64,000 nucleotides of DNA from Alphaproteobacteria bacterium (GTDB lineage: Bacteria; Pseudomonadota; Alphaproteobacteria; SMXS01). The position numbers were made by a program, and so were the translations under genes. Each line of letters starts with the position of its first letter. The stretch's first letter is position 1. The stretch spans positions 62,001 through 126,000 of the forward strand of contig JANQQJ010000040.1 in assembly GCA_028284945.1 (NCBI GenBank), written 5' to 3'. Of this stretch, positions 54,161 through 56,563 are shown piece after piece. The notes beneath the pieces were generated by a model. The model had not been told where the DNA came from. It searched no databases and saw only the letters and a list, made by a program, of their open reading frames with translations.

Positions 54161-54364
54161 TTAGTGCGCGGACGCCCGCACCCAGTCGATGATTTCGTCT
54201 ATGGCGCCGTCTAAAACGTCTGAAACCTCGTCCAGACCAGCCCATTGGGCTTCCCGCGCGAGATACTGCAAACCGGGCAGAATCAGCATGGCATTTTCTT
54301 GCGGCGTATCCGCGATCAGACCGTTCAGTCTGGTCTCATCCTCGGCATGTGTTGTGGATTTCAC
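54161..54364 (-). CDS. small protein translationally coupled to luxI
   Basis: 67 residues, acidic and helical, no signal or membrane segment. It begins with GTG sharing one base with the luxI stop (TAGTG), a strong sign of coupled translation. The C-terminal WAGLDEVSDVLDGAIDEIIDW is an amphipathic helix. I do not recognise a family. Its position makes it a candidate modulator of the signal synthase or of the LuxR proteins (inference). Confidence 0.7.
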   Translation of the reverse strand: MKSTTHAEDETRLNGLIADTPQENAMLILPGLQYLAREAQWAGLDEVSDVLDGAIDEIIDWVRASAH

Positions 54365-55002
54365 TAGGCCACCCTCTCAGCACGGCGCTCAAGATCCGCA
54401 GCCGTCTGAAGCACGGGTTCATTGACCCCGAGCTTGCTGCGTACCCGCGCCAGGATTTCAGGCGAGATTTTCGGTGCGATCGCCCTGACCGCCTCTCCGC
54501 CAATCATCCGTGTTTCGCCAAGGACGGTTACCGGCCAGCCCGTCCGTTCCATCAAAATCGTCTGCATCGCAACAGGCATCAAAATATAATATTGCTCCAG
54601 GCCTTGCTTAACGCCGTATTCAAGATAAGCGACCATCATCTCAGCAACGATGCGCCGGCGCATTTCCGGATCCAAGTCAGGGTCCACCGCAAGGCGGGTG
54701 CCTTCCCAGACCGTGTCTGATTTCACCAGTGGCGCAAAGGTCACCATGTCGCTGAATACTTCTTCCAACATGTAGGGCATGGTTGTCGGGCTTAGCCGCG
54801 TGACACCGCGCACAATGCCTTCCTGGTCACGATAGGTCAGATAGACAGCCGCGGGCGTGTCGTAGGGGTCGTATTCCATGCCGTTAAAATGCGGCACGTC
54901 ATACTTCTGTTCCTCAACGAAAACCTTGTAGCGAAGCCGGTGTTGCCCGGCTATGGCATCACCGAAGTAGTGGGCTGTCTCAAATGTTATGCAATCGATC
55001 AT
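54364..55002 (-). CDS. acyl-homoserine-lactone synthase, LuxI family
   Basis: 212 residues from ATG 55002. Counted from this start the invariant LuxI residues fall at R24, F28, D45 and D48, with later R in VTRLSPT, F in EVFSDM, and E and R in WEGTRLAV. The nearly invariant W34 is Tyr here (EEQKYDV). The enzyme joins SAM and an acyl donor to make a homoserine-lactone signal; the acyl chain cannot be predicted. The C-terminus is about 15 residues longer than in LuxI. Confidence 0.92.
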   Translation of the reverse strand: MIDCITFETAHYFGDAIAGQHRLRYKVFVEEQKYDVPHFNGMEYDPYDTPAAVYLTYRDQEGIVRGVTRLSPTTMPYMLEEVFSDMVTFAPLVKSDTVWEGTRLAVDPDLDPEMRRRIVAEMMVAYLEYGVKQGLEQYYILMPVAMQTILMERTGWPVTVLGETRMIGGEAVRAIAPKISPEILARVRSKLGVNEPVLQTAADLERRAERVA

Positions 55003-55065
55003 CGACCATCCACAGGTTGGAACTATCAGGCCTTCCAACCTAGGCATGACGGCCACACCGCACAG

Positions 55066-55081
55066 CTACGGTCATCCGTAG
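55066..55081. promoter_or_regulatory. lux-box-like palindrome upstream of luxI
   Basis: CTACGGTCATCCGTAG is an inverted repeat with perfect 6-bp arms and a 4-base centre, 64 bases upstream of the luxI start. Its size and place suit a LuxR-type operator giving positive feedback on luxI. The arms do not match the classical ACCTGT consensus closely. Confidence 0.5.
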
Positions 55082-55130
55082 GGTAGATCGATTTTGATAC
55101 AAATTTTTGCTTCATGGTGGCTGCCTGGAA

Positions 55131-55151
55131 TCCGAGTCCGAGTCCGAGTCC
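55131..55151. repeat. hexanucleotide tandem repeat
   Basis: TCCGAG occurs three times in a row followed by TCC, between luxI and luxR. Such short arrays can change length by slippage; being non-coding, a change here would alter spacing only. Confidence 0.8.
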
Positions 55152-55197
55152 TGCCCCGCTCTGCCTGAACGGGGTTCAAAGAACCCAATTGTTGGTG

Positions 55198-55914
55198 TTA
55201 CGGGGTGATAAGCCCCAGATGCAGTGATTTGACGACTGCCGTCACGCGGGAGTCGACTTCTAGCTTCTTCAGGATGTTCCGAACGTGGAACTCAACGCCG
55301 TGCTCGGAAATTCCGAGAATTTCGCCGATTGCCCAGTTGCTCTTGCCCTGGGCGCACCAGTGCAGGACTTCCCGCTCCCGGTCGGTAAGCGCGACCATCG
55401 GGTTGCCGTCCTGTTCGATAAACGACCAATAGTTCAGATGGAACTGGTGCGCCAATGCATTGAGCACCGACAGATTCTGGGACATTTCGGCGCCGCCAGA
55501 ACTGCTGGCAAGGCCGATACCGGATACTTCGCCACGCGGTCCATGCAATGGAATACCAACGCCATCATATAGACCGGCATCCTTGCCCGCGCCCATGAAC
55601 TCCATCTGCCGTTTGCTCAACGGCAGGCGCTCTGAAAGCCCGTCCCAGGAGAAAGGCCGCGAGGCTACGGTTCCATAGCGGAGAACGGGGTCAATGGTCT
55701 CAAACTCTTTCTGTCCGTAGAGCGACAACCATTCATTCGGGTAATTCGTCAGCACAAGGGACGATCCAGCACTATCGTCAGCTTCAACCGCGCGCGTGCT
55801 GTTGTACATCACCAAATCAAAGCCAAAGTCACCGATCGCGCGCTTGAACAGCGCGAGAACTTCTTCCTGGGTTTCGGCCTTATTGGAGGCCTCGATGTAA
55901 TCGATGATCTCCAT
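55198..55914 (-). CDS. LuxR-family AHL-responsive transcriptional regulator
   Basis: 238 residues. The autoinducer-binding domain keeps the signal-pocket residues: W and Y in NEWLSLY, D and P in ETIDPVL, W in FSWDGL, G in LHGPRG. The C-terminal GerE-type helix-turn-helix reads LTDREREVLHWCAQGKSNW through VEFHVRNILKKL. Both halves look functional. It lies 5' of luxI on the same strand, with about 195 bases and the palindrome between, and 4 bases after a second LuxR-like gene. Confidence 0.93.
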   Translation of the reverse strand: MEIIDYIEASNKAETQEEVLALFKRAIGDFGFDLVMYNSTRAVEADDSAGSSLVLTNYPNEWLSLYGQKEFETIDPVLRYGTVASRPFSWDGLSERLPLSKRQMEFMGAGKDAGLYDGVGIPLHGPRGEVSGIGLASSSGGAEMSQNLSVLNALAHQFHLNYWSFIEQDGNPMVALTDREREVLHWCAQGKSNWAIGEILGISEHGVEFHVRNILKKLEVDSRVTAVVKSLHLGLITP

Positions 55915-55918
55915 GTCC

Positions 55919-56563
55919 CTACCCGACCTCCGGCGCGATCAGGCCGAGCCGTAGCGCAATAACGACCGCATGAAGCTCGTTCTGGGCACGCAGGCCTTTG
56001 ACCGCGGTACGCACATGGCGACGGAAATCATCCGGTGTCAAATCGTGGCTTTGCAGCCGCGCCGGGGTCACGACGCCTTCAGCCTGCAGCGTCAAACACA
56101 GTAACTCTTCTTCAGACAGCTGCGGGACATGCGGAATGAAGCCGTAGTCCTTAAGCGTCTGTGTCGCTTCTGAATAGAATTCCTTGCCCCGGTCAAATAC
56201 GCCGCCCGTCGCGACATCGCGCAACGATGTGGGCAACAGCGTTACAATCGCCTTCTCATCGTCATCGCCGCGATACGGTAACACCAATACCGGTGACTCA
56301 TTGCCGCTTGGATTGGACCACCAGAAGGACCCTCGCGCCATGGATTCGCTGACCGAAAGCGGCGCCAGGACCGTCGCGAGCCGCGCCAGATAGCTGGGCT
56401 GGTCGGCCAGCGCCAGGCTGGTCAGCGTCACGTCCGGACACTCACCGTCATTCCAGACTGTATAAAGGTGGAACCCGAAGTGCTCGAACCCGCGTGTGCG
56501 CACGTAAGCGCCAAAACGGCGCTTCAACCCTTCCAGTTCTGCAACCTGTTCGAATTCGTGCAT
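55919..56563 (-). CDS. divergent LuxR-like protein with degenerate domains
   Basis: 214 residues. N-terminal part resembles an autoinducer-binding domain but lacks the pocket Trp, Tyr and Asp-Pro (DQPSYLARLATVLAPLSVSE replaces them); the later Trp survives in FWWSNP. The C-terminus aligns with the canonical neighbour (LSEEELLCLTLQAEG, then FRRHVRTAVKGL and ALRLGLIAPE against SLHLGLITP) but the recognition helix is poorly kept. It may not bind signal or DNA normally and could act by dimerising with its neighbour. First gene of the quorum-sensing run, after about 260 bases of AT-rich promoter DNA. Confidence 0.82.
   Translation of the reverse strand: MHEFEQVAELEGLKRRFGAYVRTRGFEHFGFHLYTVWNDGECPDVTLTSLALADQPSYLARLATVLAPLSVSESMARGSFWWSNPSGNESPVLVLPYRGDDDEKAIVTLLPTSLRDVATGGVFDRGKEFYSEATQTLKDYGFIPHVPQLSEEELLCLTLQAEGVVTPARLQSHDLTPDDFRRHVRTAVKGLRAQNELHAVVIALRLGLIAPEVG

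Follow-up and report, generated by a model that had tools for sequence, protein, structure and literature searches.

A conserved LuxR/LuxI variant with a probably ligand-blind LuxR paralogue and a candidate CinS-like output protein in Alphaproteobacteria

Organization of the locus

The window, that is the whole stretch of 64,000 nucleotides analysed here, contains four consecutive minus-strand genes with the hallmarks of a quorum-sensing locus. In the order of transcription these are degR (55919..56563), encoding a divergent LuxR paralogue of 214 aa; luxR (55198..55914), encoding a canonical AHL receptor and transcription factor of 238 aa; luxI (54364..55002), encoding an AHL synthase of 212 aa; and a gene termed small (54161..54364), encoding a 67 aa protein with a GTG start. 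An earlier note on this DNA had described four genes on one strand, with 4 bases between the two LuxR genes and a 1-base overlap after luxI, and all of this is confirmed: degR and luxR are separated by 4 bp, and the GTG start of small shares one bp with the luxI stop (TAGTG). Its description of the gaps as short throughout holds for degR-luxR and luxI-small, but not for luxR-luxI, which lie 195 bp apart in the window and 195–462 bp apart across its relatives.

LuxR matches the Pfam families Autoind_bind (E 9.9e-29) and GerE (E 2.8e-22), and it is the only one of the encoded proteins to combine both domains with the nine conserved residues of AHL receptors, in agreement with the claim that one LuxR retains the whole signal pocket and DNA-binding domain. 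LuxI possesses the AHL synthase domain of LuxR/LuxI quorum sensing (Autoind_synth, E 4.6e-26; 91.9 bits, for a curated cut-off of 24). Its start is most likely the ATG at 55002 rather than the GTG at 55056, since the resulting N-terminus, MIDCIT, is common to all relatives, where the ATG is also conserved. Neither DegR nor the small protein matches a Pfam family, and nothing credible was found for them in NCBIfam, so that DegR could not be assigned to any named family. No Rfam match was found within 51–60 kb of the window.

The luxR-luxI gap includes a lux box, CCTACGGATGACCGTAGC (55065..55082, minus strand), upstream of luxI. This element, a dyad and putative binding site, is conserved in all seven species known to carry the locus (see below), where no other part of the gap is as well conserved, and it lies at the same distance from luxI. 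A perfect match to this site occurs once per genome in six out of six genomes searched, leaving no further perfect site in these six that would point to a wider lux box regulon; sites with one mismatch are few, and none is common to both genera. Upstream of degR, no dyad common to the species compared was found. Because the 195–462 bp gap contains this conserved lux box, the locus probably comprises two transcription units, degR-luxR and luxI-small, and a single four-gene operon is rejected in that form on the same grounds. The luxR-luxI gap of the window also contains a short hexanucleotide repeat (GAGTCC units, 55130-55152), absent from the gaps of the relatives.

Conservation across the family

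Relatives of LuxI were sought in 60 genomes, and were found in six species of a genus of the same family as the window genome, here labeled g3, with 75–77% identity to the window LuxI. One of these genomes (G008) is that of Alphaproteobacteria bacterium isolate RI_34, as judged from the agreement of coordinates and sequences. The order degR-luxR-luxI-small is present in all six further species, at the same site between thiL and hppA; to the extent covered by the contigs, the unit is flanked by nrdR-ribD-nusB-thiL and, at its opposite end, by hppA-bamE. The gap between degR and luxR is 4 bp in all seven species, and the small ORF of the relatives, 61 aa in length, starts ∼1 bp from the luxI stop. 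In another genus of the family, g2, thiL and hppA are adjacent, about 210–250 bp apart, which indicates that the four genes were acquired, or else lost, together. No LuxI match was found in a seventh g3 genome, G009 (78% complete). A second luxI, split over two reading frames and apparently broken, was observed in the genome G007 (G007:C1; L085:3390-4890).

Pairwise dN/dS values within g3 (NG86 method) indicate purifying selection on each of the four genes, at 0.02–0.08 for degR, 0.01–0.16 for luxR, 0–0.08 for luxI and 0–0.05 for small. The earlier note had made its reading depend on finding the same gene order in other genomes, and on conservation of the divergent LuxR and of the small ORF; both are borne out by these comparisons. 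Between the window and g3, protein identity is 71–73% for DegR, 65–67% for LuxR, 74–77% for LuxI and 60–62% for the small protein, with 55–58% for the neighbouring ThiL. The divergent DegR is therefore better conserved than the canonical LuxR (72% vs 65%). The AHL domain is 58–61% identical between genera in LuxR, and the corresponding domain of DegR 71–73%; the DegR C-terminal domain is 70–73% conserved between genera, with invariant basic residues in its helix region.

From the preservation of the four-gene order in six species and the purifying selection acting on degR and small, a circuit beyond a plain LuxI/R pair is likely. The earlier note had suggested such a built-in circuit; this part is supported, but the view of the four genes as a single compact unit is not, as the lux box splits them in two.

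The divergent LuxR paralogue

DegR is a full-length, divergent LuxR, since its match to a profile built from 59 LuxR proteins of alphaproteobacterial loci spans practically the whole protein (residues 2–212, hhalign probability 98.7, E 2.9e-16), and since its N-terminal 143 residues alone score 32.3 against that profile, compared to a maximum of 22.1 for 60 column shuffles and 13.6 for the reversed sequence. A structure model of DegR has a pLDDT of 49.9 and hence lends weak support; LuxR-type receptors account for all of its 16 best matches in the PDB, although no match has E < 0.001. A sequence search of the PDB returned no match, and outside the family only weak matches to the C-terminal part were found among 387 genomes.

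In the multiple alignment, two of the pocket residues are substituted (D70 to A, G113 to V) and W57 falls in a gap, while P71 and W85 are retained; the placement of Y61 is uncertain. In addition, about 18 residues are missing between W85 and G113. With its pocket residues changed and this segment missing, DegR is unlikely to bind AHL. Conversely, the HTH triad E178/L182/G188 is retained, although the recognition-helix region differs strongly from that of LuxR. The earlier statement that the degenerate LuxR had lost both sets of key residues thus requires correction, as it applies to D70 and G113, but not to P71, W85 or the HTH triad. Given this triad and the several basic residues kept in the helix region, DegR may bind DNA on its own. 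On balance, DegR is most likely a ligand-blind partner of LuxR, and that it modulates LuxR is a reasonable inference.

Pairs of LuxR-type proteins are found in other systems. In Sinorhizobium, the adjacent LuxR-type regulators VisN and VisR act jointly, without classical AHL sensing and without linkage to luxI. The window pair is luxI-linked, with the pocket missing in one partner only, and the window LuxR matches models of VisN and VisR through the HTH only. The functional precedents for one LuxR modulating another are CerN of Cereibacter sphaeroides and TrlR of Agrobacterium, which antagonise their LuxR partner by direct binding (PMC11655674, PMC13043044). In both CerN/CerM and TrlR/TraR, a divergent LuxR is located beside, or paired with, a full one, as is DegR here. 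However, in CerN and TrlR it is the AHL domain with its conserved pocket that is preserved and the HTH that is absent, which is the opposite of DegR, where D70A, G113V, the gap at W57 and the missing segment alter the pocket, and where the C-terminal domain is present with its triad. A dominant-negative LuxR of the TrlR/CerN type is ruled out for DegR on this basis.

The small protein and its family

The small protein is predicted by AF2 to form a helical hairpin, with high confidence for residues 21–65 (mean pLDDT 84.5); Foldseek identified generic helical hairpins only, such as ROP. I built a profile from 11 small ORFs located directly 3′ of luxI in other alphaproteobacterial families, excluding that of the window. 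Among all window ORFs, only small matched it significantly (E 5.6e-5, the runner-up being at 3.1), with the proviso that some of the seed selection relied on a motif first noted in the window protein itself, a mild circularity. The match persists when any single seed is dropped (E 9e-6 to 7e-4), and several seeds also match one another by plain BLAST. The small protein can thus be placed in a recurrent, still unnamed family of helical proteins coupled to luxI. The earlier note had presented it as a coupled protein of no known kind; the coupling to luxI is real, but in light of this family it is not simply an unknown.

With a wider profile, which includes several of the seeds, so that their own matches are expected, family members were identified in 36 of 387 genomes of the class, about half of them adjoining luxI. 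Those inspected away from luxI have no luxR nearby, with the exception of the paralogues described below; members with neither luxR nor luxI in the vicinity were seen in several alphaproteobacterial genomes (L206-L212). No convincing match to small was found on plasmids.

In four g3 genomes (G002, G004, G005 and G006; loci L081-L084), a second luxR-type gene, luxR2, is followed by a paralogue of small, small2, without luxI. The luxR2 product of G002 is 32–37% identical to LuxR. In three of these genomes, the stretch separating luxR2 from small2 contains a dyad, AAACCTACTGGATTGGCTAGGTTT, of which G002 has a weaker form. The existence of these luxR2-dyad-small2 loci suggests that the small protein is a LuxR output, independent of LuxI. 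In G002, luxR2 is further preceded by a 77-aa ORF encoding a DegR-like HTH, which shares 45% identity with the window DegR across 62 aa. The window genome has a second quorum-sensing locus of its own (G000:C26; L030:6765-10691), where a single luxI has a tandem array of four LuxR genes behind it, all in the same orientation; pocket or HTH residues are altered in some of these.

A possible link to PraR

Two small proteins cotranscribed with luxI, CinS and MmaP, bind the regulator PraR (PMC10790750). In the available text on CinR-CinI-CinS of Rhizobium leguminosarum and MmaR-MmaI-MmaP of Methylobacterium fujisawaense, the small protein (67 and 59 aa, respectively) follows directly after the synthase, as in the window, and no counterpart of degR is described, unlike in the window (PMC10790750, PMC3356288). 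At 67 aa, the window protein lies within the range of about 60–70 aa for an ORF of this type coupled to the end of luxI; the likeness to CinS and MmaP is one of size and position and, at best guess, of function. According to the same text, the PraR gene precedes metK-trmB in both R. leguminosarum and M. fujisawaense (PMC10790750). The window genome likewise possesses a PraR-type XRE gene before metK-trmB (L039:4683-5162), which is a weak pointer, since this neighbourhood is class-wide and non-discriminating (PMC10688885).

In G276 (L192:1821-4465), the gene order is luxR-luxI-small-XRE. Counting matches at E < 1e-15, 6 of the 19 loci with luxI and small have a PraR-type gene no further than about 5 kb away, compared to 1 of the 24 luxI loci that lack small; a single genus contributes four of these six, and by lineage the ratio is about 3 vs 1. 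The linkage of PraR to luxI-small loci is for this reason suggestive only. The small protein of G276 is 108 aa long, and its C-terminal part resembles, by eye, the C-terminus of PraR-type proteins.

Proposed mechanism and alternatives

Taken together, these observations describe a real, conserved LuxR/LuxI variant, probably comprising a ligand-blind LuxR paralogue and a CinS-like output protein. As a full explanation, I propose a conserved LuxR/LuxI module in which a ligand-blind LuxR partner tunes the loop and a small anti-repressor is the output, a reading to which I assign a probability of roughly 45%. AHL-bound LuxR would activate luxI-small, creating a positive-feedback loop. DegR, made together with LuxR and no longer responsive to AHL, would set the gain or threshold of this loop, with the retained LuxR fold most likely allowing it to pair with LuxR. 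The small helical protein would be a protein-level output, binding and neutralising another regulator; by analogy to CinS and MmaP, its target would most likely be a PraR-type XRE repressor. A stricter version, where the ligand-blind paralogue, slower to evolve than the receptor, is a dedicated receptor partner and where luxI and the small anti-repressor are the sole direct target, forming a pure feedback switch whose readout is one small protein of a widespread, unnamed alphaproteobacterial family, seems to me doubtful.

The role of DegR could be different, if it bound and regulated DNA sites of its own, independently of ligand and without acting on LuxR, to which it would be linked only to match expression. 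The retained HTH triad, the conserved C-terminal domain with its invariant basic residues, and the occurrence of a DegR-like HTH-only ORF before luxR2 in G002 agree with such a role. However, its recognition-helix region is far from that of LuxR and no conserved dyad lies upstream of degR, while the constant 4-bp junction to luxR in seven species points to a dosage matched with LuxR; I consider this possibility worth retaining, but rather unlikely. Far less probable still, and in effect ruled out, is an ordinary luxR-luxI pair that happens to lie beside a spurious ORF and a luxR duplicate undergoing decay. The lost pocket residues, and the failure of Pfam to recognize DegR, are what such decay would produce, but dN/dS values as low as those of degR and small, in intact ORFs with fixed junctions and a conserved gene order across seven species, are not.

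The small protein might instead act on LuxR, DegR or LuxI rather than on an XRE protein, either as a chaperone or as an anti-activator providing feedback, in the manner of TraM or RsaM. It is well known that small proteins can bind LuxR receptors (PMC13043044), and both the coupling to luxI in seven of seven species and the paralogue after luxR2 would suit this role. Against it, small2 persists without luxI, family members exist away from both luxR and luxI, no Pfam match connects the protein to known anti-activators, and the luxI-cotranscribed precedents, CinS and MmaP, bind PraR (PMC10790750). I therefore regard an action on LuxR, DegR or LuxI as unlikely, and my best guess is that the small protein works in the way of CinS and MmaP, which makes a role as circuit output more likely than one as a built-in modulator of LuxR.

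If the proposed mechanism, with DegR as a ligand-blind partner and the small protein as an anti-repressor, is right, DegR would represent a partner of LuxR in which ligand sensing is gone while the fold and HTH persist, the reverse of the situation in TrlR and CerN, and the role of LuxR-LuxR pairing would become testable in a native setting. It would also imply that quorum-sensing output in Alphaproteobacteria may be conveyed by helical proteins of an unannotated, luxI-coupled family, which would act by binding other proteins instead of through a large LuxR regulon.
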